In this document: piece by piece, positions 9,301 through 25,160 of the stretch
How the letters are laid out: each line of letters starts with the position of its first letter
Numbering within the stretch: position 1 is the first letter of the stretch
NCBI RefSeq assembly: GCF_014050225.1
Contig: NZ_JACFXV010000053.1
Location: 186,001-250,000 of the forward strand
DNA from: Stappia albiluteola
GTDB lineage: Bacteria > Pseudomonadota > Alphaproteobacteria > Rhizobiales > Stappiaceae
Direction: 5' to 3'
Length of the DNA stretch: 64,000 nucleotides
The notes under the pieces: generated by a model
Told to the model about the DNA's origin: nothing
Seen by the model: only the letters and a program-made list of their open reading frames with translations
The model's database searches: none
Translations under genes and position numbers: made by a program

Positions 9301-10233
9301 ATGAGTGCCGAACCGCCCCGCCCGCCACTGGACGACCTGATGATGGCCATGGACGTGGTGGACACGCTGCGCCACGACGAGGCCATCGCCATCAAGGAAC
9401 TGGCCGGCGAGGAACGGGACAAGGCGCTGATCGAACGGCTGCGCGAGATCTACGTCAGCCAGGGCATCGAGGTGCCCGACCGCATCCTGCGCGAGGGCGT
9501 GGAGGGACTGAAGGAAAACCGCTTCCTCTACACGCCGCCGGCGGCGGGCTTTTCCCGCAGCCTCGCCCTCGTCTATGTGCGTCGGCACGTCTGGGGCAAG
9601 TGGGCCGCGGTCACCTTTGCCGGACTGGTTGCCGCGTTTATCGCCTGGCAGGTCCTCGTCGTCGCGCCGGCCGAACGGCGGGCCGAGGAGCTTCGCATCG
9701 AGTTGAGCGAGACCCTGCCCGCCGACCTTCAGGCGGCGCGCGAACGCATCGATGCGCTCGCGGTTGACGAAAAGGTGAGGCTCGACGCCCTGATCATCGC
9801 CGAGGACGGTGCGCGCGCGGCGGCAGCAGGCGATGCCGCAACAGCCCGCAAGGCGCTGGCCGACCTGAAGGCGCTGGAAGCCGAGCTTGCCGCGGTCTTC
9901 GAGGTCCGCATCGTATCGCGGCCCGACACGCCGACGGGCCTTACCCGCATTCCCGATGCCAATCCCGACACGGAAAATTTCTACCTCGTCGTCGAGGCAG
10001 TTGCTCCGGACGGCAGCGTTCTGCCGCGCCAGATCACCTCGGAGGAGGATGGCAGGGCGAGCATGGTTTCGATCTGGGGACAACGCGTCGCGCCGCAGAC
10101 CTTCGAGCGGGTGCGCCAGGACAAGCAGGACGACGGCATCGTGCAGGACAAGGTGCTCGGCCGCAAGGAGCGCGGCAGGCTGACGCCCGACTGGGCCATG
10201 CCGGTCCAGGACGGAGCGATCACCAAATGGTAG
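9301..10233 (+). CDS. DUF6384-like single-pass membrane protein of the cassette
   Basis: 310 aa. A conserved-looking cytoplasmic N-terminal segment of about 95 residues (PPLDDLMMAMDVVDTLRH, then EGVEGLKENRFLYTPPAAGFS) precedes one transmembrane helix at about 101-121 (WAAVTFAGLVAAFIAWQVLV). A coiled-coil stretch follows (about 125-200). The C-terminal domain (about 200-310) looks like a small beta-rich fold with EVRIVSRPDTPTG and NFYLVVEAVAP. I associate this architecture with the uncharacterised DUF6384 family from memory. Second gene of the cassette, probably the membrane anchor for its two helical partners. AGGAGG occurs upstream but at a rather long spacing (15 nt). Confidence 0.65.
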   Translation: MSAEPPRPPLDDLMMAMDVVDTLRHDEAIAIKELAGEERDKALIERLREIYVSQGIEVPDRILREGVEGLKENRFLYTPPAAGFSRSLALVYVRRHVWGKWAAVTFAGLVAAFIAWQVLVVAPAERRAEELRIELSETLPADLQAARERIDALAVDEKVRLDALIIAEDGARAAAAGDAATARKALADLKALEAELAAVFEVRIVSRPDTPTGLTRIPDANPDTENFYLVVEAVAPDGSVLPRQITSEEDGRASMVSIWGQRVAPQTFERVRQDKQDDGIVQDKVLGRKERGRLTPDWAMPVQDGAITKW

Positions 10234-11890: not shown

Positions 11891-12211
<321 letters not shown>

Positions 12212-12342: not shown

Positions 12343-12711
12343 TCAGTTTTCAAGCAGACCCGAGATAAAGCCGTTGGCCTCGCCGACCGCCGCCTTCAGC
12401 GCCATCAGGGAGCCCCGGCGGCCCGCGGCCGCCTCCATCTCGAGGCTTTCGGCCGCCATGGCGACCTTCCAGGCGCCGATACCGCGGGCGGAGCCCTTGA
12501 TCGTATGCGCCTGCTCGCCGAGCACTTTCGTCTGCTCGGCCGCTTCCATGCGCTTCAGCACCAGTTCGCTCTGGCGCAGGAAGAGCCGCAGCACCTCCTG
12601 CTCGAGCGCCCGGTTGCCGAGTGTATGGCGCGCAAGATGCACCAGATCGACAGGCGCCCGGCCGCTGTCCTTTTCCCCGCCATCGTGGTTCTGCAGTACA
12701 GCCTGAACCAT
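12343..12711 (-). CDS. Hpt domain-containing phosphotransfer protein
   Basis: 122-aa stand-alone histidine phosphotransfer domain, one four-helix bundle. The phosphoacceptor is His69 in HTIKGSARGIGA, matching the Hpt signature HxLKGxxxxxG. No histidine kinase or receiver is adjacent, so its relay is not defined; in alphaproteobacteria such orphans can serve hybrid kinases elsewhere. It is transcribed toward the ferredoxin gene on the same strand with a 131-bp gap. The roughly 260 bp upstream holds an AT-richer stretch with 7-bp arms GTTGGAT/ATCCAAC at 12828-12854, of unknown relevance. Confidence 0.85.
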   Translation of the reverse strand: MVQAVLQNHDGGEKDSGRAPVDLVHLARHTLGNRALEQEVLRLFLRQSELVLKRMEAAEQTKVLGEQAHTIKGSARGIGAWKVAMAAESLEMEAAAGRRGSLMALKAAVGEANGFISGLLEN

Positions 12712-13297: not shown

Positions 13298-13584
13298 TTG
13301 TGGCTCCCGCTTAAAGCCGCAAATCCTTGTTCGCCGGAATTGATTGTGTCATTAGCTAAAGGGATGCGGCAAGGTGGGGCGAAGACTTTCCCGATCCATG
13401 TTCCAAGGATCGAGCGAGTGCGGCACTTCCTCCCAGCCCCGGACTGTGGCCAAATGCGTATAGTAAATGCGCGATGGCCCCAGTCGGTGGGAGTTTAATC
13501 CTTGGCGCACCGTGGCACGCAGCACGACTCGGTCTAGGCTGCGCGACCGGTGAGTTGAGAGTACGGACGCGAGGCAAGGTCACT

Positions 13585-16500
13585 ATGGCAAATCCCCCGA
13601 AGGTGAAAGATCCGGCGGAAGCGGCTCTGTCTGCTGTCGAGGAAGCGCTGAAAATCGATTTCGGCGGTCCCGAGGAGACGGCGGGCGAAGCGCAGAAATC
13701 CGCGGATCAATCGGCTCCGCAAGCGCGCGCTCCAGGCGATGCCGCCGGCGCGCAGCGCGAGGCCGCACCGCCGCCGGAGGCAACCGGCGACGAGGGAGAA
13801 ACCGGACAGAGCGGCCGCAAGCGGCGGGGCCGTGGCGGCGGACGCCCGACCTCGGCGGCCAATGACGACCGACGCTCGATCGGCAATCTCATCTACGCCC
13901 TGCAGCGCAAGCCATCCTCGGCTCCCTTCTGGGGTGCTCTCGTCCTTTCGGTCGCCTGGGGCGGCATCGGCTCGATGCTCGCTTTCTCCGCTTTCGGCGC
14001 CGAGGCCGAGGGCATCGGCAGCCTCGCCGACCTGACCAATTCGCCGGGCCTGGTCCTGGCACTCATCGCCGTCGTCGTTCCGGTCATCTTCTTCTGGGTA
14101 ATGGCCATGATGATCTGGCGCGCCCAGGAAATGCGCATCGTCGCGCGCGGCATGACCGAGGTGGCGCTGCGGCTTGCCGAGCCGGAAGACGTCGCGAAGG
14201 AGTCGATCCTCTCCGTCGGCCAGGCGATCCGCCGCGAAGTCGCCGCCATGGGCGACGGTATCGAGCGTGCGATCGCGCGTGCGAGCGAACTCGAAGTGCT
14301 GGTGCACAATGAAGTCTCGTCGCTTGAGCGATCCTACAACGACAACGAGCTGAAGATCCGTTCGCTGATCGAGGAACTCGTTTCCCAGCGCGAAGCCGTG
14401 ATCACCAATGCCGACCGCGTGCGCGATGCCCTTGCCGGCGCGCATGAGGCGCTGGTGTCCCAGCTTACGGCCTCCACCGACAAGTTCTCCAATTCCGTCG
14501 ACAGCGCGACCGAGCGACTGACTGACGCGATCTCCGAGCGCGTCAGCGAACTGACCTCCAGCGTCGACGACCGTGTGGAGCATATCGCCTCGACCTTCAA
14601 CTCTGCCGGTGTCGAGCTGATCGACAGCCTGACCGACCGCAGCGCCGACTACGTGGAACGGCTGACCTCGACCGGCAGCGAGCTGGTGGAGACCATGAAC
14701 CGCACGGGTTCGGCCCTGACCGAAACCCTTGCCACCCGTGGCAACGACATCAACGAGCGCTTCAGCTCGACGGCGACGACCTTCATCGACGCCCTGTCGG
14801 AACGCGGCGACGACATCACCTCCACGCTCGCCTCCACCAGCAATCTCGTCATCGAGACACTGACGGCGCGCGGCCGCGAGATCACCTCCTCGCTCGCCGA
14901 AACGGGGAATTCGGTCGAGAGCGCCATTACCCAGCGCAGCGAAGAGATCACGGCGAACCTGTCTCTGACCAGCGGCCGCCTGATCGATACGATTTCCACG
15001 CGCACCGACGAACTGATCGCCACGGTCGACGACCGGGTGACGACGCTCGACCGCTCGCTCTCCTCCACCGGGGAGCAGGTGGTGGAAAGCATTTCCCGTC
15101 GCGGCCAGGAAGTCACCGACACCATCTCCATCAAGGGCACGGAAATCATCGACACCCTGTCGAGCCGGACCAACGAGGTGGCGGAAATCCTGCGCGGCAC
15201 CGGCGAATCCATCGTGGTCGACCTGTCGCTGCGCGGCGGCGAGATCGCCTCGAAGCTGGACGAGACCGCGGCAAGCCTCACCGAGACGATTTCGGTGCGC
15301 GGCGGCGAACTGGCCGACCGTCTGGACCATGTCGGCAACAAGATCCACGAGGCGATCGCCGTCAACGGCGAGGCGCTCGACGAGCGGCTCAACGCCCGCG
15401 GCAAGGAGATCGCGGCCCTCATCGAGGACCAGACCTCGACCTTCCGCCAGACCATGGAAGCGGCATCCGGCGAGATCACCGGAACGCTTGCCCAGCAGTC
15501 GGCCTCGCTCGGCCACAAGCTGGCGCAGACCGGCACCGACCTTGCCGAGCTCATCGGCTCGCGCGGGGCGAAGGTCTCCCAGGAAATCGTCAATGCCGGC
15601 AACAAGTTCGTGGAAACGCTGGAGTCGCGCGGCGATACCCTGCAGGCGGGCCTCAGCGTCCGCATCGAGCAGCTTGAAGCGATCGTCGGCGAACGCGGCG
15701 ACCAGTTGATCGTCTCCTTCGACGACCGCACCGCCCGTCTGGGCGAGACGCTCGACCGGCGGATCACCATGCTCGATACGCAGCTTGGTTCGCGCGCCGA
15801 GGCGATCGACGGAGCGATTTCCAACCGCACGGCGGCGCTCGAAGCGGCGCTTGAGACCCGCGCGGCCAACCTCGACGGCGCCCTTTCGGGCCATCTGGAA
15901 GCGCTCGGCTCGACGCTTGACCAGCGCATCGGCCATCTCGACGCCTCGCTCGACAGCCGCATTTCCAGCCTCGACAACACGCTCGACAGCCGGATCAGCA
16001 CGCTGGATACGACTTTCGAAAGCCGTATCTCCGGGCTCGACGAAACGCTGGAGAAGCGCACGTTCTCGCTCAACGACACGCTGTTCGGCCGGCTGGAGGC
16101 GCTGGACGCCACACTCGCCGAACGGGCGGGCTCGCTTGGCGAAACGCTCGACAACCGCATCGAGACGCTGGACCTGACGCTGTCGCAGCGCACGGCCACA
16201 TTCGAGGCGGCCTTGCAGTCGCGCACGTCCTTCCTTTCGGAGACGATCGAGACGCGCACCAACGCGCTTACCGAGGCGATCGAGACCCGCGCCGGCGCCC
16301 TGTCCGACGCAATCGAAAGCCGCACCGGCGCGCTGTCGCAGGCGCTGGAGACGCGCACCAACACCCTTTCGGAGACGATCGAAACCAGGGCAAGCGCCCT
16401 TTCCGACGCACTGGAAAGCAAGACGCTCACCCTCACCGACATCCTGGAAAACCGCACCAACGCGATCACCGCGCATCTCTCCGCCAAGGTGGACGAAGTT

Positions 16501-19500
16501 GGCGTGTCGCTCGGCAACCGCGCCGAGGAGATCGGCCGCAGCCTGACGGAGCGTTCGGGCGAGATCGGCGCGTCGATCCAGGCGCATCTGGTGGAATTCG
16601 AGAAATCCGTCGGCGACAAGGTGGAGAACGCCGCCATCGCACTGACGGAAAAGACCACGCACCTGGCCGAAACCATGTCGACCGGCGCGGAGAAGATCGA
16701 CAAGGCGCTCGATGCACGCGGCCGCCAGATCAGCGAGACGCTGATCACGCGGACCCGCGAAATCGCGTCTGCTTTCGTCGAGGGCCAGAACGAGATGGCC
16801 GCAGCCCTCGACAAGCGGCTTGAGGACGCCGGTTCAGTACTCGCCCGACAGAGCCAGGAACTGACTGACACGCTGGCCGACCGGGTGGCCGAAATCAACG
16901 TTTCGCTCGGCTCCAAGGTGTTCGAGGTCGCAGAAACCCTCGACAGCCGCGCCGGCGATCTGGAGCGCATGCTTTCCGAGCGTCTCGCGGCGATTTCCGG
17001 CACGCTTGCTGCCGAAAGCGAAAAGGCCCGCATGACCGTCGGCGACGTGATCGGCCAGGCCGGCGAAACGCTGGAGAAGATCACCGGGTCGCTGTCCGGC
17101 GAGGGTGAAAAGCTGCGCACAACGATCGAAACGACGCTTGCCGAGGCGGTCGAAAAGCTCGGCAGCGAAGGCGGGCGCCTGCGCCACATCGTGCTCGGCT
17201 CGGTCGGCGAAGCGCGCGGCGTCCTGCAGGGCGAAAGCGCGAAGGCCGCCGAAAGCATCACGCAGGCGATCACCCAGGCAACCAGCACGCTCTCCGGCGA
17301 GAGCCTGCAGGTGCGCGACCTGGTGCTGACCGCCGTCAACGAGGCGGCCCGTTCGCTGGCTGCCGAGAGCGAGAAGGCGCGCGCGCTTTATGTCGGCACT
17401 CTCGCCGAGATGGCGAGCACGCTGACGAACGAGACCGACCGCACCCGTACCGACCTGTCGCGCACGGTAGCGGAAATCTCCGGTACGCTTGCCGCCGAAA
17501 GCGAGCAGGCCCGCCACGTCCTGTCGCAGACGAGCGAGGAGATCCGCAACCTGATCTCCGGCCAGGCGGACAGCGTGAAGGCGCGGGTGGCCGATGCCGT
17601 CCGCGAAGCCGCCGACGCCCTTTCGGAGCGCGGCAATGCAGTGGCGAACAACCTGCTTGCCCAGGCGGACGAGCTCAACCGGACACTGGGAGAGCGCTCG
17701 GCGGAACTCGGCACCCTCATCGGCACGGACGGCAACACGCTGGTCCAGGCGATCGAGGACCGCGCCCGCGAACTCACCTCGCGCGTTTCGGAAGTCCACA
17801 ACGCGATCCTGGAGGCGATCACCGTCAAGGGCCGCGAGACCGCCGACAGCTTCGCCCGCAAGGGGCTGGAGACGACGCGGGCCATCGTCGAAGCCGGCGA
17901 CGGCATCATTTCCGCGCTCGAGGACCGCAGCCGCTCGGCCGCCGACATCCTCACCGTCACCAAGACGCAGCTTGAGGAAGACATCGCGTCGATCCTCGAC
18001 CGCCTGAACCAGGCCAACGGCATGCTCAGCGACGTGCTTGAGAAGGCCGGCGAGAATCTGGGCAATGTCGAGACGAGCCTGTCGCGCAGCGCCGGCGAGT
18101 TCCGCACCGCCGTGGACCGCGCGGTGCAGGAGACCGGCCGTTCGACGGATACAATCGGCAGCCAGGTCGAGGTACTGCGCGAGGTCTCCAACACCGTGCT
18201 GGCCGACATCACGTCGCTGGCCCGGCGCTTCGAGGACCAGAGCCGCCAGCTCAACGACGCGGCCAAGCATCTGGAAGAGACCAACACATCCGTTTCCTCA
18301 CGCATCTCCGAACGCCGCACGGCAATCGAGGACGTCGCCGACACACTGCTGGCGAAAACGGAAGCGGTCGACACGCTGATGCGCAGCTTCACCGAGCAGC
18401 TTGGCGAGACGCTGGAATCCGCTGACGTGAAGAGCCGCGAAGTGACCGGCATGCTGGCCGCAGCCGCGGAAGCCGCTACCAGGGCCGTTACCGAGCAGTT
18501 CGAGTCCATGCGCATGTCTGCCGGCCTGGAAGGCCAGAAGGCCCGCGAGGCGGTTCGCGCCGCCGAGGACGAGATCGTCAGCGAAATGTCCCGCATGCTC
18601 GGCGAGGCGTCCGACAAGTTCACCGAAGCGACGACCCGCATGCGCGACGTCGCCCGCGAGGTGCACCGCGAACTGGAGGCGACCCGTGCCGAACTGAAGC
18701 GCGGTGTGCTCGACCTGCCCGAAGAAGCGGAGGCTTCAACCGCCGCGCTCCGCAAGGTCATCAGCGAGCAGGTCCGGGCCCTTGGCGAGCTTTCCGAGAT
18801 CGTCGCCAAGCAATCGAACTCGCTCGACGTGTCGCGCGGTTCCGACCGGGTGCAGGCAAACTCCCTGGGGGCAGCGCGTGTCGCACCGCCGCCGCAGCCT
18901 GCCCCGCTGAAGGATCAGCCTGCCACGCCGCAGCTGACGCGGCAGTCGCCGACACCGGCGGCGGCACCGCAGCCTGCCCATCAGCCGATCCGGGGCGAGT
19001 TGCGTCGCACGACGCTCTCCGACTTCGAGCAGCCGAAGGCGGAAGCCGCTCAGGCACCGCAGGGCAAGGGCTGGGTCAGCGACCTGCTGCGCCGAGCTTC
19101 GCGCGCCGACGGCGGCGAGGAGCGGCCGCGGTCCGAAACGGCCAGCCGCACGCCACTGCATATGGTCGAATCGCTCAACAGCCTGTCCATGGACATCGCC
19201 CGGGCGATCGACCACGAGACCTTCCTCGACCTGTGGGAGCGCTACAAGCGGGGCGAGCGGCACGTCTTCACCCGCCGTCTCTATACACTGCAGGGTCAGC
19301 AGACCTTCGACGAAATCCGCCAGAAATACAGCCGCGACGCCGAATTCCGCGACGCCGTGGACCGCTATATCCGCGATTTCGAGCAACTGCTGAGCCAGGT
19401 GTCGCGCAACGACCGCGACAATATGCTGGGCCAGACGTATCTGACCTCCGATACCGGCAAGGTCTATACGATGCTTGCCCATGCAAGCGGCCGTCTCGAC

Positions 19501-19503
19501 TGA
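13585..19503 (+). CDS. gpr: GROWTH POLE RING (GPR)-like giant hendecad-repeat membrane protein, 1972 aa
   Basis: Probable homologue of the Agrobacterium GPR protein, which forms a ring at the growing pole and is needed for polar growth and rod shape. Layout: a low-complexity, Pro/Glu/Arg-rich N-terminus to about residue 100; two transmembrane helices at about 118-138 and 150-173 (region FWGALVLSVAWGG to VIFFWVMAMMIW). Then comes about 1500 residues of helix in 11-residue repeats with pattern [LI]xxRxxx[LI]xx[TA] (LDSRISSLDNT, IETRAGALSDA, LENRTNAITAH), turning into 22-residue units (LAAESEKAR..) toward residue 1150-1350. A Pro/Gln-rich linker follows, then a conserved-looking C-terminal domain of about 120 residues (MVESLNSLSMDIARAIDHET, then VFTRRLYTLQGQQTFDEIR). 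Such repeats explain an apolipoprotein-like domain hit. The ATG at 13585 has AAGGT upstream; the open frame before it is not credible. Confidence 0.85.
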   Translation: MANPPKVKDPAEAALSAVEEALKIDFGGPEETAGEAQKSADQSAPQARAPGDAAGAQREAAPPPEATGDEGETGQSGRKRRGRGGGRPTSAANDDRRSIGNLIYALQRKPSSAPFWGALVLSVAWGGIGSMLAFSAFGAEAEGIGSLADLTNSPGLVLALIAVVVPVIFFWVMAMMIWRAQEMRIVARGMTEVALRLAEPEDVAKESILSVGQAIRREVAAMGDGIERAIARASELEVLVHNEVSSLERSYNDNELKIRSLIEELVSQREAVITNADRVRDALAGAHEALVSQLTASTDKFSNSVDSATERLTDAISERVSELTSSVDDRVEHIASTFNSAGVELIDSLTDRSADYVERLTSTGSELVETMNRTGSALTETLATRGNDINERFSSTATTFIDALSERGDDITSTLASTSNLVIETLTARGREITSSLAETGNSVESAITQRSEEITANLSLTSGRLIDTISTRTDELIATVDDRVTTLDRSLSSTGEQVVESISRRGQEVTDTISIKGTEIIDTLSSRTNEVAEILRGTGESIVVDLSLRGGEIASKLDETAASLTETISVRGGELADRLDHVGNKIHEAIAVNGEALDERLNARGKEIAALIEDQTSTFRQTMEAASGEITGTLAQQSASLGHKLAQTGTDLAELIGSRGAKVSQEIVNAGNKFVETLESRGDTLQAGLSVRIEQLEAIVGERGDQLIVSFDDRTARLGETLDRRITMLDTQLGSRAEAIDGAISNRTAALEAALETRAANLDGALSGHLEALGSTLDQRIGHLDASLDSRISSLDNTLDSRISTLDTTFESRISGLDETLEKRTFSLNDTLFGRLEALDATLAERAGSLGETLDNRIETLDLTLSQRTATFEAALQSRTSFLSETIETRTNALTEAIETRAGALSDAIESRTGALSQALETRTNTLSETIETRASALSDALESKTLTLTDILENRTNAITAHLSAKVDEVGVSLGNRAEEIGRSLTERSGEIGASIQAHLVEFEKSVGDKVENAAIALTEKTTHLAETMSTGAEKIDKALDARGRQISETLITRTREIASAFVEGQNEMAAALDKRLEDAGSVLARQSQELTDTLADRVAEINVSLGSKVFEVAETLDSRAGDLERMLSERLAAISGTLAAESEKARMTVGDVIGQAGETLEKITGSLSGEGEKLRTTIETTLAEAVEKLGSEGGRLRHIVLGSVGEARGVLQGESAKAAESITQAITQATSTLSGESLQVRDLVLTAVNEAARSLAAESEKARALYVGTLAEMASTLTNETDRTRTDLSRTVAEISGTLAAESEQARHVLSQTSEEIRNLISGQADSVKARVADAVREAADALSERGNAVANNLLAQADELNRTLGERSAELGTLIGTDGNTLVQAIEDRARELTSRVSEVHNAILEAITVKGRETADSFARKGLETTRAIVEAGDGIISALEDRSRSAADILTVTKTQLEEDIASILDRLNQANGMLSDVLEKAGENLGNVETSLSRSAGEFRTAVDRAVQETGRSTDTIGSQVEVLREVSNTVLADITSLARRFEDQSRQLNDAAKHLEETNTSVSSRISERRTAIEDVADTLLAKTEAVDTLMRSFTEQLGETLESADVKSREVTGMLAAAAEAATRAVTEQFESMRMSAGLEGQKAREAVRAAEDEIVSEMSRMLGEASDKFTEATTRMRDVAREVHRELEATRAELKRGVLDLPEEAEASTAALRKVISEQVRALGELSEIVAKQSNSLDVSRGSDRVQANSLGAARVAPPPQPAPLKDQPATPQLTRQSPTPAAAPQPAHQPIRGELRRTTLSDFEQPKAEAAQAPQGKGWVSDLLRRASRADGGEERPRSETASRTPLHMVESLNSLSMDIARAIDHETFLDLWERYKRGERHVFTRRLYTLQGQQTFDEIRQKYSRDAEFRDAVDRYIRDFEQLLSQVSRNDRDNMLGQTYLTSDTGKVYTMLAHASGRLD

Positions 19504-20871: not shown

Positions 20872-21516
20872 TCAAACGCTGCCGACAACCCAGGCAGCCA
20901 GTTCGGCAAGCACGCGGTCCGAGGCCGCGCCCATCGCCTGCACCGCCTGGGCGACGCCGGTGCCTGAGGCTGGAACCTCCGCCCTGAACACGCGGCTGGC
21001 TCGGGTCTGGCCGTTCCGGTCGTTGACCAGACGGGCCATGATCTCGACCACCGCCCTGTCCTGTCCGTCGATGCGAAGCTCGAAAGCACGCAGCTCCGTC
21101 TGCAGCTGATAGTCAATCAGCAGGCTCTCGCCCGGCCGGCCGACACCGCGCAGCCTGCCGGTATTCTCCAGTGTCTCGATCAGCTTGGCCTGCACCACCT
21201 TGGGCAGCGTGTCCGACCATGCGGCTTTTGGGAAATAGGTATAGACCGGGCCGGCGTCGACGACGGCGATGGAATTGGTGCCAAGGGCCTGCAACGCGCT
21301 CGGCTCGGGCACGAGGATCTGCCGGCCACCGGCGCGGCCGGAGGTCTCAAACCCGCGCGGAGCATTGAGACCGTAAAGCGCATCCGGGCCGGAACTGGCG
21401 CAGGCGCCGAGCGACAACAGCAGGCCGAATGCGGCAAGACGCGCAATTCCCGCGCTCCGAACCGCGAGACGTTTCCCCGCTGTTCGGCTCTTGCCCCTCA
21501 TTGCCCCCGAAATCAC
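20872..21516 (-). CDS. ABC-type transport auxiliary lipoprotein (PqiC/DUF330-like)
   Basis: 214 aa with a lipoprotein signal: basic N-terminus, hydrophobic core and lipobox LGAC before ASSGPDALYGL. The body (YFPKAAWSDTLPKVVQAKLIETLEN, quoted by its first 20 as a landmark near residue 100; RELRAFELRIDG-like segment) fits the auxiliary lipoproteins that accompany MCE transporters and dock at the outer membrane. The listed start is a GTG overlapping the MCE gene stop by 4 nt (GTGA); an in-frame ATG at 21501 is the alternative. Last gene of a four-gene operon with the permease, ATPase and MCE protein, so it is probably the outer-membrane side of the same lipid-transport apparatus. Confidence 0.85.
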   Translation of the reverse strand: MISGAMRGKSRTAGKRLAVRSAGIARLAAFGLLLSLGACASSGPDALYGLNAPRGFETSGRAGGRQILVPEPSALQALGTNSIAVVDAGPVYTYFPKAAWSDTLPKVVQAKLIETLENTGRLRGVGRPGESLLIDYQLQTELRAFELRIDGQDRAVVEIMARLVNDRNGQTRASRVFRAEVPASGTGVAQAVQAMGAASDRVLAELAAWVVGSV

Positions 21517-23162
21517 CGTCGCTTCGCCCCGTCATAGGTCGGCAAATCCGATCCGCCGAAGATCACCCGACTCGGATTTCGGTCGATATTAGCGACAGCG
21601 CGCTGAATTTCCACCAGCGTACGGTTTAACTGAGCCATTGCCGCTGAAAAATCAGCAGAACCCCGGCTGGTGAAGCGGTTCAGACCATCGGCAATCGGCC
21701 CGATATTCTTGTCCAGGCTGTCGGCGACCTTGCGAATCGATTCGGCCGTAGCGGTCAATTGCGCCACCAGCCCCCCGCCATCGCCTTCCACCATGCCGTC
21801 CACCTTGTCGATGACGGACGTCACGCGCACGCTTGCGGCATTCAGGTTCTGCGAAATCTCCGTCGCATTCTTGATAATCGTGTCCAGTTCCGGCCGCTTT
21901 CTGTCCAGGTCGTCCGTCAGGGCACGGAAACTTGCCGCTCCGGCGGAGACATCGTCGATCGCCTTGCCGACGGTGTCGGATTTTCCAAGGACGGTGGAGG
22001 TGAAGCCCTCGACATTCGCCATGATGTTACCGATCCGGTCGGGCTCAAGCGCCGCCACGACCTTGTTGGCACCGTCGAGGAACGTGTTGACCTTCTTGCT
22101 GGCGTCGACCGCCTCGGTCAGGAAGGTGGAAATCTCCTCTTCGCGGCTCTCGATCGTCTGTGTGATCGTCTGGATGTTGTTGATCACGTCGGTCGACTTG
22201 GTGACGATCTCGTTGAGGTCGCCGCTGCGATCCTGAAGCAGCTTGGCGAAGCTTGCCGCACCGTCGACCACCTGTTTCACCTTCTCCGGCTCGACGGCAG
22301 CGATGACCTGGTCGATGTCGTTGAGGTTCTTGTTCAGGCCCTCGGTGAAGGTCTTCAGATCGTCGGTCGCCGCTTTCGCCTCGTCGATCAGGCCCGCGAC
22401 CTGACCGGCAGCCCCCTCGAGGCTCTTGCCGATGGCAGCGGCGCTATTGATTGTCTCGGTGACTTTCTCCGGCGGCACCGCATCGACGATTCTCTCCGCC
22501 TTGACGACAAGACTTTCGAGCCGGCCCGACAGTTTGGTCAGCGCCTCGCCGGTCGTCGACATGCTCGACATGAAGGTCTGGACGCCGTCGGAATTGGCGG
22601 CCAGTGCATCGGAGAACACCTTGATATTCTTGATGGTCTGGTCGATCTCGTCGCGATTGCCGGCAATTACCTCCTCGATGGTCTTCAGCGTCTGATCGGC
22701 CTCGCCCAAAATATTTCGTGCGCCCTGAACGATATCCTCGAAGGCGGAACGGTCGGCGTAGATCACCGGCTCGGCGCCGTTCAACCCCTCAAACAGGGAA
22801 GCGGCCTGGTTAGTGCCGCCAAAAAGTTCCACATATGCGACGCCGGTAAGTCCCTGATAGCCGAGCGTCGCCTTGACGTCCTTGCGCAAAGGGGCGGTAG
22901 GATCGATGCGTACCGTCGCGACAACGACCTTCGGATCCTCCGGATCGAAATTCAGCGCGCCGACATCGCCGATCTTGATGCCGTTGAAGACCACCTGGCT
23001 TCCCTGCGACAGGCCGGTGACGGCACCGGGGAAAATGATCTTCACATTGACATTCTTGGTGCGGTCGGCCGTGCTGCCGAGCCAGAAAATGAACGTAAAG
23101 GCAGCAAAGATCACCACGAAGACGAAGGCGCCGATCGCTACGTAATTGGCACGGGTCTCCAT
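21513..23162 (-). CDS. MCE-domain periplasmic lipid-binding protein (MlaD-like)
   Basis: 549 aa. An N-terminal signal anchor (residues about 8-29, YVAIGAFVFVVIFAAFTFIFW) is followed by one MCE domain (about 38-120, VKIIFPGAVTGLSQGSQVVF, GIKIGDV, GYQGLTGVAYVELFGG). A long helical region of about 400 residues rich in coiled-coil pattern follows. MCE proteins form hexameric rings that bind phospholipid in the periplasm. The long helical tail resembles the needle-like PqiB/LetB or mycobacterial Mce C-termini more than short MlaD, and could form a tunnel toward the outer membrane. It lies between the ATPase gene (33-bp gap) and the auxiliary lipoprotein gene (4-nt overlap). Confidence 0.92.
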   Translation of the reverse strand: METRANYVAIGAFVFVVIFAAFTFIFWLGSTADRTKNVNVKIIFPGAVTGLSQGSQVVFNGIKIGDVGALNFDPEDPKVVVATVRIDPTAPLRKDVKATLGYQGLTGVAYVELFGGTNQAASLFEGLNGAEPVIYADRSAFEDIVQGARNILGEADQTLKTIEEVIAGNRDEIDQTIKNIKVFSDALAANSDGVQTFMSSMSTTGEALTKLSGRLESLVVKAERIVDAVPPEKVTETINSAAAIGKSLEGAAGQVAGLIDEAKAATDDLKTFTEGLNKNLNDIDQVIAAVEPEKVKQVVDGAASFAKLLQDRSGDLNEIVTKSTDVINNIQTITQTIESREEEISTFLTEAVDASKKVNTFLDGANKVVAALEPDRIGNIMANVEGFTSTVLGKSDTVGKAIDDVSAGAASFRALTDDLDRKRPELDTIIKNATEISQNLNAASVRVTSVIDKVDGMVEGDGGGLVAQLTATAESIRKVADSLDKNIGPIADGLNRFTSRGSADFSAAMAQLNRTLVEIQRAVANIDRNPSRVIFGGSDLPTYDGAKRR

Positions 23163-23195
23163 TCCAGCCTCGCTCCCAAATGGCCCTGCTCGTCT

Positions 23196-24002
23196 TTAAT
23201 CGACGCGGCGCAAGGCCCGCTCGCCCTTGAAATAGGACTGAACCCAAGGATGATCGAACTGCATTATCTCATCCAGGGACCCGTTAATCAGTACGCGCCT
23301 TTCCCCTAATACCGCGATGCGGTCGCAAATGGAATGCAGGCTGTCGAGGTCGTGGGTAACCATGTAGACGGTAAGGCCGAGCGTATCGCGCAGGCTTTCG
23401 ATCAGGCGGTCGAAGGCGGCTGCACCGATCGGATCGAGGCCGGAAGTCGGTTCGTCGAGGAAGACGAGATCGGGGTCGAGTGCCAGCGCGCGCGCCAGGC
23501 TCGCCCGCTTGATCATACCGCCAGACAGTTCTGACGGCATCTTGTCCGCCGCGTCCCGCGGCAAGCCGACCATTTCCAGTTTCAAGAGGGCCAGTTCATC
23601 CATCAGTTGCTCAGACATACGCATATGCTCGCGCATGGGCATCTTGATGTTCTGCTTCACGTTCAACGAGGAAAACAGCGCGCCCTGCTGGAACAACACG
23701 CCCCATCGACGCTCGACCTCCAGCCGTTCCTCGCCGCTTGCCGTATCGAGATTGCAACCGAAAACCTCCACCGTGCCGGCGCGGCGCGGCGTCAGACCGA
23801 GGATGGCGCGCATGAGAACCGACTTGCCGGTGCCCGATCCGCCGACGAAGCCCAGGATCTCGCGGCGATAGACCTCAAGGTCGAGGTTTTCCAGCACCAG
23901 CTTGTCGCCGAAGCCGACGGTGACGCCCTTGACGCCGAGTATGACATCACCGAACTCCGGATGCCCGCCCGGTTCGTGCTCCCACGCCGCCGTTTCTGCC
24001 AT
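23196..24002 (-). CDS. ABC transporter ATP-binding protein, MlaF-like
   Basis: 268-aa cytoplasmic ATPase energising the MCE system. All ABC motifs are intact: Walker A GGSGTGKS, Q-loop FQQGALF, signature LSGGM, Walker B LVFLDEPTSGLD and H-loop THD. The LSGGMIKRASLARALALDP stretch is typical for the MlaF/Mkl group. It starts 3 bp after the permease stop and is clearly co-transcribed with it. Confidence 0.95.
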   Translation of the reverse strand: MAETAAWEHEPGGHPEFGDVILGVKGVTVGFGDKLVLENLDLEVYRREILGFVGGSGTGKSVLMRAILGLTPRRAGTVEVFGCNLDTASGEERLEVERRWGVLFQQGALFSSLNVKQNIKMPMREHMRMSEQLMDELALLKLEMVGLPRDAADKMPSELSGGMIKRASLARALALDPDLVFLDEPTSGLDPIGAAAFDRLIESLRDTLGLTVYMVTHDLDSLHSICDRIAVLGERRVLINGSLDEIMQFDHPWVQSYFKGERALRRVD

Positions 24003-24005
24003 GGC

Positions 24006-25160
24006 TCAGATCCCCACCGAGGCAAAGAAGATGGCAAACAGGCCATCGACGACGATGACCATGAAGATTGCCTTCACGACGGATAGCGTGGTGTGGCGGC
24101 CGAGCGATTCCGACGAACCGCCCACCTTCAGTCCCTCCACGCAGGCGACGAGGCCGATGATGAGCGCCATGAACGGCGCCTTGATCAACCCGACATTGAC
24201 GGTCTCCATCGTCACGGCCTCCTGCAGGCGCTGCAGGAAGGTCTGCGGTACGATGTCGAGATAGAGCCAGGTGACGAGGCCGGCGCCGAAAAGCGCGGCA
24301 AGGTCGGCGAGAAAGGCCAGGACAGGAAGGGCGAGCATCAAGGCGAGAATGCGCGGCAGGATAAGCACTTCCGTCACCTTCAGCCCGATCACATGCAGGG
24401 CGTCGATTTCCTCGCGCATCTTCATGGAGCCGAGTTCGGCGGTGAAGGCGGAGCCGGAACGGCCTGCGACCATGATCGCCGTCAGCAGCACGCCGATTTC
24501 GCGCAGCACCAGCACGCCGGCCAGATCGACGGCGAAGAGATCGGCGCCGAACTGGCGCAGATAGAAGCCGCCCTGCTGGGCGATGATGCCGCCGATGAGG
24601 AAACTCATCAGAAGAACGATCGGCACCGCCCCGATACAGGAACGGTCGAACTGTACCGCGACAGAGACGGCACGCAGCCGGCGCGGATTGAAGAGGATGC
24701 CGGACAGGACTGCCGCCAGCGAGCCGACGATGTGACAGACCGCGACCGCGTCGTTGGCGACCTCGGTCATCTGGCGGCCGGTCTTTTCCAGCAGGCTCAC
24801 GACCGAAAAGCGCGAGCGATAGGGCTTCCAGGGCGTGGGGTGATGGGCTTCGATCTCGGAAAAAAGCGCGGCATAGGTGTCGCTGACGCCGACCCGATCG
24901 ACCCGCGCCCCACGATATTCCAGGTCGCCCTGCAGGCGGTGGAGCAGCCACGCGCCAGCGGTATCGAGAGAATCGATCCGCGAAAGGTCGACAACCGCAT
25001 AGACGGGCTCGCCGCAGCGAAGCCCGGCAATCAGGCTCTCCAACTGCTCGGCATCATGGATCGTCCAGCAGCCGCCCGGGCAAAGCCGAAGGATGTTGCC
25101 TTCGCCATGGGCATCGAGCGTCGGTGCGATCCGGGCCGCCACGCCAAGGTCAGCCGGCAT
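24006..25160 (-). CDS. STAS-fused MlaE-type ABC permease
   Basis: 384-aa inner-membrane permease with an N-terminal STAS-like domain (about 15-110, containing VDLSRIDSLDTAGAWLLHRL). The MlaE domain follows with its hallmark VLREIGVLLTAIMVAGRSGSA and AELGSMKMREEIDALHVIG around 225-265. In Mla systems a separate STAS protein (MlaB) regulates the ATPase; here it is fused to the permease, so no mlaB gene is needed. First gene of the operon, transcribed away from dgcN, with 175 bp between the starts. Confidence 0.93.
   Translation of the reverse strand: MPADLGVAARIAPTLDAHGEGNILRLCPGGCWTIHDAEQLESLIAGLRCGEPVYAVVDLSRIDSLDTAGAWLLHRLQGDLEYRGARVDRVGVSDTYAALFSEIEAHHPTPWKPYRSRFSVVSLLEKTGRQMTEVANDAVAVCHIVGSLAAVLSGILFNPRRLRAVSVAVQFDRSCIGAVPIVLLMSFLIGGIIAQQGGFYLRQFGADLFAVDLAGVLVLREIGVLLTAIMVAGRSGSAFTAELGSMKMREEIDALHVIGLKVTEVLILPRILALMLALPVLAFLADLAALFGAGLVTWLYLDIVPQTFLQRLQEAVTMETVNVGLIKAPFMALIIGLVACVEGLKVGGSSESLGRHTTLSVVKAIFMVIVVDGLFAIFFASVGI

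Follow-up and report, generated by a model that had tools for sequence, protein, structure and literature searches.

GPR of Agrobacterium tumefaciens (Atu1348, PMC8262873) and RgsE of Sinorhizobium meliloti (SMc00190, PMC7327166) have roles in polar growth; GPR forms a ring at the growing pole and RgsE is found at the pole. GPR is described as a protein with two N-terminal membrane helices, a giant continuous helical cytoplasmic part, a match to the apolipoprotein family PF01442 and an important C-terminus, and its ring of 200 nm contains six 50-nm foci. PMC8262873 builds on the apolipoprotein similarity, and PMC7327166 assigns to RgsE apolipoprotein domains and an SMC-like coiled coil and calls the protein repeat-containing. 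The published work consulted here leaves unanswered how a helical protein of this size is built into a 200-nm ring.

The window analysed here is a stretch of 64,000 nucleotides from Stappia albiluteola (contig NZ_JACFXV010000053.1, positions 186,001 to 250,000), in which an earlier note had recognised a GPR-like gene coding for a near-continuous array of 11-residue repeats (hendecads). Both statements held. The C-terminal domain is 74.1% identical to that of S. meliloti RgsE, the two genes share Hpt and ferredoxin neighbours, and 79 hendecads follow each other without an insertion or deletion. The protein itself is already known, and its extreme hendecad lattice is real; the new points are the quantised length of the repeat region and the origin of the apolipoprotein score in periodicity. 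The gene encodes an orthologue of the polar-growth scaffold GPR/RgsE, which we consider likely to form a near-straight parallel coiled-coil rod of about 200 nm, anchored N-terminally in the membrane and kept in phase by selection. Searches of the published literature on hendecads (in bacteria, in polar growth and in coiled-coil families) showed no description of the GPR lattice, though a 2023 hendecad survey may list GPR. The words hendecad, 11-mer, 11-residue, 22-mer, repeat and heptad are absent from the main text of PMC8262873, and the available part of PMC7327166 uses neither 'hendecad' nor '11-residue'.

The hendecad lattice

The spacing of hydrophobic residues was assessed with a periodogram over 2009-aa residues 230-1700 (2009-aa marks numbering in the longest open reading frame; all other residue numbers refer to the 1972-aa protein). 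At a period of 3.667 (11/3) the power was 125.6, compared to at most 6.54 in 1000 shuffles. At 3.5 (7/2) and 18/5 it was 0.49 and 0.05, respectively, so that the proposed check of hendecads against heptads came out for hendecads and a heptad coil was rejected. Residues 283-1151 form 79 hendecads with no residue inserted or lost, in which position a is hydrophobic in 79/79 and position h in 76/79. Position d is Arg or Lys in 67%, k is Thr, Ser or Ala in 74% and e is Gly, Ser, Thr or Ala in 74%, which agrees with the pattern [LI]xxRxxx[LI]xx[TA] read by eye before. Polar residues, many of them acidic, occupy columns b, c, f, g and j. The hydrophobic seam is narrow, with two large hydrophobic residues per 11 residues and a mostly small e, and this preference for small residues is in line with the small core residues that hendecads require (PMC9858780). 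The 869 residues of the block contain no Pro, Cys or Trp and carry 149 acidic and 86 basic residues (-7.2 per 100 aa). When isolated misses are tolerated, the longest run extends to 81 hendecads, and 50 shuffles of the protein yielded at most 7.

The array had been placed at residues of about 400 to 1100. It starts earlier, at about 261-283, keeps one register to about 1151, and retains the 11/3 period, with register shifts, to about 1440-1470. Only a single proline is found in the 1458 residues 283-1740. Self-identity is 0.223 at lag 11 and 0.263 at lag 22, with an expectation of 0.087. The 22-residue units described for the later part of the array do exist, but they are not confined to it: lag 22 exceeds lag 11 throughout 2009-aa residues 331-1330, and a 66-bp echo is seen in the DNA at 16233-16386.

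Among named relatives, Stappia sediminis and Hongsoonwoonella zoysiae are nearest (69% over their best segment), followed by further Stappia, Roseibium, Pannonibacter and Pseudovibrio (30 loci); Stappia and Hongsoonwoonella belong to the family Stappiaceae, order Hyphomicrobiales, class Alphaproteobacteria (NCBI taxonomy). Family counts exclude L001 and L032-L041 (copies or short pieces), and alignment A1 excludes L132, L136 and most family loci. The longest hendecad run is 62-146 in 31 family proteins (median 76), 5-127 in 60 order proteins (median 49.5) and 4-19 in 40 class proteins from outside the order (median 6); in a shuffle control, with 50 shuffles for each of 14 proteins, the maximum was 9. 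With six near-duplicates removed, 25 family proteins remained, whose longest runs comprise 2105 hendecads; these contained no proline and had a hydrophobic position a in 99%. Runs of at least 20 hendecads from the 60 order proteins have 0.25 Pro per 1000 residues.

The open reading frame at its longest spans 13474-19503 (2009 aa). The start at 13585, which gives 1972 aa, is better, as it matches the start of RgsE in the alignment (MA..., then an ALKIDF motif). The protein is laid out as follows, all on the + strand:

13585..19503, +: GPR/RgsE orthologue, 1972 aa (open reading frame analysis, homology to relatives and RgsE)
13585..13899, +: N-terminal region upstream of the membrane hairpin, aa 1-105, of low complexity, with the short motif LSAVEEALKIDF at aa 15-26
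13921..14124, +: membrane hairpin with a hydrophobic helix at aa 113-142 and another at about 157-180 (hydropathy, AlphaFold2 helices)
14128..14418, +: conserved membrane-proximal segment, aa 182-278, used as N anchor (gapless alignment in 31 family members)
14431..17037, +: 79 hendecads in succession, aa 283-1151 (hendecad register analysis)
16233..16386, +: 33/66-bp tandem repeat within the hendecad block, 69% matches
17038..18012, +: second zone of hendecads, in which the register shifts, aa 1152-1476 (power 44.8 at 3.667 for 2009-aa residues 1100-1480)
18013..18804, +: distal helical zone with a period of about 3.6, aa 1477-1740 (periodogram of 2009-aa residues 1480-1750)
18805..19134, +: Pro-rich linker, aa 1741-1850, its length drifting by small steps
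19162..19500, +: predicted all-helical C-terminal domain, aa 1860-1972, the family signature

The pattern of the N-terminal motif occurs in 21/31 family, 21/60 order and 0/40 non-order proteins. The two N-terminal membrane helices of the earlier description were recovered by hydropathy and in AlphaFold2 predictions: the model of residues 89-512 consists of the hairpin and a near-continuous helix (pLDDT 76.1, pTM 0.28). The compact C-terminal domain was likewise predicted, as all-helical and with moderate confidence (best model pLDDT 73.7, pTM 0.62; remaining four models 50.6-63.3). The C-domain model had no convincing match in the PDB, the best having an E value of 1.2, and because of this and the moderate confidence we leave the fold unnamed. 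Opposite the array, two long open frames lie on the - strand, at 13534-16662 (1042 aa) and 14649-17339 (896 aa); they are probably a by-product of the codon pattern of the array.

Quantised rod length

The length of the rod was measured between two anchors that are gapless in the family, one of up to 97 residues past the second membrane helix and one of 300 residues near the rod end (aa 1441-1740, whose blast alignment is gapless across 31 family members). Family members have anchor-to-anchor distances of 1013 to 2039 residues, for example 1101 in Roseibium polysiphoniae and 2039 in Pseudovibrio stylochi; in the wider list of proteins the span is 591 to 2082. All 31 family proteins, with 23 distinct lengths, fall into classes 8, 1 and 4 modulo 11, that is 0, +4 and +7 residues, which corresponds to a phase error of 0, +33 and -33 degrees on an 11/3 helix. 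For 23 independent lengths in any three classes P would be about 2e-11; the lengths are in fact related by descent. Counted on a tree, there are 23 length changes and 4 class changes (9 when taken modulo 22), and random classes on the tree gave a mean of 18.2 class changes with a minimum of 13 in 2000 trials. Among the 131 proteins, 54 passed a filter that demands gapless anchors and a C-anchor ahead of the next match by >15 bits; 39 of their 45 distinct lengths lie in the three classes.

Gaps in pairwise alignments show the same step. In 118 of the 465 family pairs (identity 0.62-0.999; the pairs overlap, so events are not independent), 224/256 rod gaps are multiples of 11, with 22 and 44 as the commonest sizes, and gaps below 11 are absent. 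In the linker of the same pairs, aligned with the same aligner, gaps are mostly of 1-3 residues and only 4/356 are multiples of 11; the high gap-opening cost of the aligner favours long gaps in rod and linker alike. At the DNA level, the extra 99 or 132 bases in 3/7 close pairs are 98, 87 and 84% identical to the adjacent stretch, which indicates tandem duplication or loss as a mutational route to length change. Duplication accounts for the multiples of 11; the missing short indels and the shifts by one or two turns point to selection on the phase of the rod.

A proposed straight rod and its alternatives

According to the scaffold reading introduced above, the 11/3 stripe would let several copies pack side by side, in parallel orientation, as a nearly straight coiled-coil rod. 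Hendecads differ from a free helix by only 0.03 residues per turn, and hendecad bundles therefore hardly supercoil (PMC9858780). The N-termini of the rods would anchor at the membrane, the C-terminal domains would be presented far from the anchor, and the polar ring would thereby organise envelope synthesis. The ability to build a polar ring, which had also been suggested for the window protein, is published for GPR. Tandem duplication of 33/66-bp units would alter rod length while selection would purge phase-breaking indels. Both the oligomer state and the parallel orientation are inferred. As the rise of an alpha helix is 0.15 nm per residue, the rod would measure about 130 nm for the unbroken block and about 219 nm for residues 283-1740.

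The earlier note had offered two pictures of the array, a right-handed coiled coil and an amphipathic helix lying on the membrane as in apolipoproteins and perilipins. Neither is proven, and a right-handed or straight coiled coil is favoured by the narrow-seamed, acidic helix, the lack of Pro and Trp and the behaviour of the Pfam score after column shuffling. The chain of 2009 aa matches PF01442 with 266.1 bits, over the curated cut-off of 90, and S. meliloti RgsE matches the same profile with 257.8 bits. On the 79-hendecad block, the native sequence scored 218.4 bits, a shuffle within columns 204.6 and the reversed sequence 186, and a full shuffle gave no match (one sequence each). Because a shuffle that preserves only the composition of the hendecad columns keeps nearly all of the score, the similarity seems mostly to reflect 11-residue periodicity, and we rejected apolipoprotein homology as the main cause of the score. 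Of eight C-domain relatives from outside the order, three scored 32-44.5 bits and five had no match at E 0.001, so none reached the cut-off.

We regard as unlikely the alternative that the array is an apolipoprotein-like helix, a rod on the membrane or a lipid-binding segment as the published GPR work proposes, with a functional link to the neighbouring Mla transporter. In addition to the Pfam score, it is in line with the GPR deletion phenotypes (PMC8262873), with the MlaEFD genes downstream (see below) and with apoA-IV, which alone among PDB sequences matched residues 283-1740 at E 0.01 (1.4e-7, 7.2e-6). The hydrophobic moment is also close to that of apoA-IV (0.36 vs 0.40), with nearly equal hydrophobic fractions. 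The 11/22-residue amphipathic periodicity is common to the window protein and the apolipoprotein A1/A4/E family. However, apolipoproteins have 22-mers punctuated by proline, and such punctuated 22-mers were not found in the 869-residue block (0 Pro, vs 3.29 per 100 residues in apoA-IV); the block is also more acidic, with a negative net charge and a narrow seam. In a HeliQuest-type lipid discriminant, 2% of 18-mers passed in residues 283-1151 and 5% in 1152-1740, compared to 16% in apoA-IV. This test is weak, as moments and hydrophobic fractions hardly differ, the difference is one of charge and apoA-IV itself mostly fails.

The multiples of 11 might also result purely from unequal recombination of 33/66-bp repeats, in which case the register would have no further structural meaning. 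The near-copies of adjacent DNA in 3/7 close pairs, the 66-bp tandem array in the window and the predominance of even multiples (22, 44) among the rod gaps would all be expected from such neutral dynamics. We consider them an improbable explanation on their own, since the rod lacks gaps below 11 while the linker of the same pairs is rich in gaps of 1-10, the off-class family lengths of +4 and +7 approximate one and two helical turns, and position a stays hydrophobic in 99% of hendecads though repeats 11 or 22 apart are only 22-26% identical. A further possibility is an antiparallel intramolecular bundle of hendecad helices, similar to spectrin or an apoA-IV bundle and compact enough for a 50-nm focus. 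It would fit the focus width, the published argument that the chain must fold back, as an extended helix would reach 600 nm, and the three-helix bundles reported from SWISS-MODEL (PMC8262873). Such a bundle appears highly improbable, with 79 hendecads showing neither Pro nor a register break. For the extended 1700-aa helical domain, 600 nm corresponds to about 0.35 nm per residue, a mismatch with the roughly 255 nm of an alpha helix. Moreover, GFP was placed at the N-terminus of the GPR deletion constructs (PMC8262873), and for this reason the foci may mark bundled anchors, not the rod, while the rods reach across or inward.

Several observations weigh against a phase-locked straight rod. The narrow GPR foci and the folding argument of the authors have been mentioned. 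The order outside the family obeys the length rule less well: 34/60 proteins passed the anchor filter, and 22 of their 33 distinct lengths lie in the three classes (binomial P 3e-6). RgsE, with an anchor distance of 1259, is in class 5 and thus off-class, with a C-anchor margin of only 7.5 bits. In the family, 32/256 rod gaps are not multiples of 11. The other four close pairs have split gaps (18+48, 59, 62 bases; some not multiples of 33) or an extra piece that is less alike, and the DNA alignment of the pair L020/L029 has two opposite 24-base gaps. Slippage of repeat-unit DNA by itself would yield many multiples of 11, and the claim of selection consequently rests on the lack of short indels and the few +4/+7 changes. 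The N-terminal AlphaFold2 model has a low pTM and, at model residues 109-111 and 263-268, breaks of low confidence. Finally, column-preserving charge tests for parallel pairing were weak (z 2.4 at lag 5, compared to z 3.9 at lag 4, the intrahelical spacing), and charge pairing was rejected as proof of parallel orientation.

The rods of close relatives mostly gain or lose complete repeats, as would be expected of a long straight rod with its phase kept. If true, the phase-locked, nearly straight rod offers concrete lengths, an orientation and a sharp mutational prediction (changes of 11 or 22 versus 2 or 6 residues), where published thinking has been steered by an apolipoprotein label that here mostly reports 11-residue periodicity. 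The family also provides a natural length series for asking whether the growth zone owes its size to the length of the rod. A bolder proposal, which we hold to be doubtful, is that GPR acts as a molecular ruler, a phase-locked hendecad rod that grows or shrinks by quanta of 22 residues (3.3 nm) and whose length determines how the polar growth zone is shaped. On this view a wider alphaproteobacterial polarity family, which may include TipN, had a shorter, 25/7-like coiled coil from which the pure 11/3 rod evolved inside the order, and the similarity to apolipoproteins would be a periodicity artefact.

Lineage, neighbourhood and known systems

The genome of the window carries one gpr copy. Matches to the C-terminal 113 aa were found in 41/41 family, 146/149 order and 118/290 class genomes; the 118 include 5 order members, among them the window's own genome, and 40 proteins from outside the order were fetched out of them. 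Among all 131 proteins the dominant period is 3.64-3.69 in 78 and 3.47-3.53 in none. The 40 non-order proteins have periods of 3.56-3.625 (median 3.575, near 25/7) without long hendecad runs, so that long pure hendecad rods appear only inside the order, judged by these 40 proteins. One relative of 774 aa from Sphingomonas (L143:6018-8342) combines the C-domain with a period of 3.565 and a divergently oriented Hpt gene, and by these features represents a short non-order form of the family.

MreB matches over the cut-off were found in 6/72 family and order genomes and in 40/40 class genomes. The window's genome has no MreB match over the cut-off, which fits a GPR/RgsE role in polar growth. Matches below the cut-off, present in all genomes, were interpreted as other actin-fold proteins. 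When the order is set against the remaining genomes, absence of MreB and presence of the hendecad rod are clearly associated, an association that ignores kinship. Within the order, 54 MreB-less genomes were compared with 6 MreB-bearing ones by statistics that ignore phylogeny: the MreB-less genomes have longer proteins (median 1872 vs 1200.5, P 0.0017) and a slightly higher period (P 0.012), and run length differs weakly (P 0.058). Loss of MreB was rejected as the cause of the rod, as 3/6 MreB-bearing order members have runs of 40, 42 and 57 and 11/54 MreB-less ones have runs below 20.

The following genes flank gpr:

11891..12211, -: 2Fe-2S ferredoxin, conserved neighbour
12343..12711, -: Hpt-domain protein, divergent conserved neighbour
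20872..25160, -: lipid-transport ABC operon (auxiliary lipoprotein, MlaD, MlaF, MlaE), downstream and often conserved

Upstream on the opposite strand, the ferredoxin gene occurs at 30/30 family, 52/60 order and 1/40 class loci and the Hpt gene at 26/30, 40/60 and 5/40. The genes for lipoprotein, MlaD, MlaF and MlaE occur downstream on the opposite strand at 25-26/30, 21-23/60 (23/60 for MlaEFD) and 7-8/40 loci. The flanks covered were up to 10 kb long at family loci and about 5 kb at the others, and contig ends truncated some of them. The arrangement is conserved synteny, not proof of a shared pathway. Further upstream, at 9301-10233 on the + strand, a DUF6384 protein is encoded beside another gene, which we take to be TelA-like; neither has a relative near gpr in the 130 other loci.

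Other known systems resemble the window protein in part. ZorA of Zorya defence (NCBIfam NF033914) gave weak matches to the second half of its profile, taken to be the long tail, with 39 bits here and 69.8 for RgsE; it was rejected against the NCBIfam cut-off of 190 bits, as were SMC, SpiroCoCo and mycoplasma two-TM NCBIfam matches, all below cut-off. TipN of Caulobacter crescentus has been described as similar to GPR (PMC8546619) and as an analogue (PMC13170164). Judged by these descriptions, its general shape fits the short non-order relatives. Scy and FilP of Streptomyces are cell-division and pole proteins that form rods with long hendecad stretches, Scy consisting 'almost entirely of hendecads' (PMC9858780). 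They differ in being actinobacterial and in carrying a DivIVA-like N-terminal motif; a Pfam scan of the window protein at E 0.1 gave no DivIVA match. To our knowledge, Scy and FilP have no membrane hairpin.

RgsE is closer. The S. meliloti protein of 2089 aa (L142:9073-15342) has the published length of RgsE (PMC7327166) and carries the annotation 'kinesin' in CP090106.1, a record of 3.7 Mb under the label plasmid pSymB; by eye, a long internal segment (ARTSEATASL to SIAGAI) occurs in it twice. Its gene likewise has divergent Hpt and ferredoxin neighbours and its period is 3.655, but its longest unbroken hendecad run is 52, shorter than the 81 of the window protein and the family maximum of 146. 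In S. meliloti 2011, an rgsE mutant was isolated after loss of the plasmid that complemented it (PMC7327166). With GPR itself, compared through its published description, the window protein shares the two N-terminal membrane helices, the giant continuous helical cytoplasmic part and the PF01442 match.

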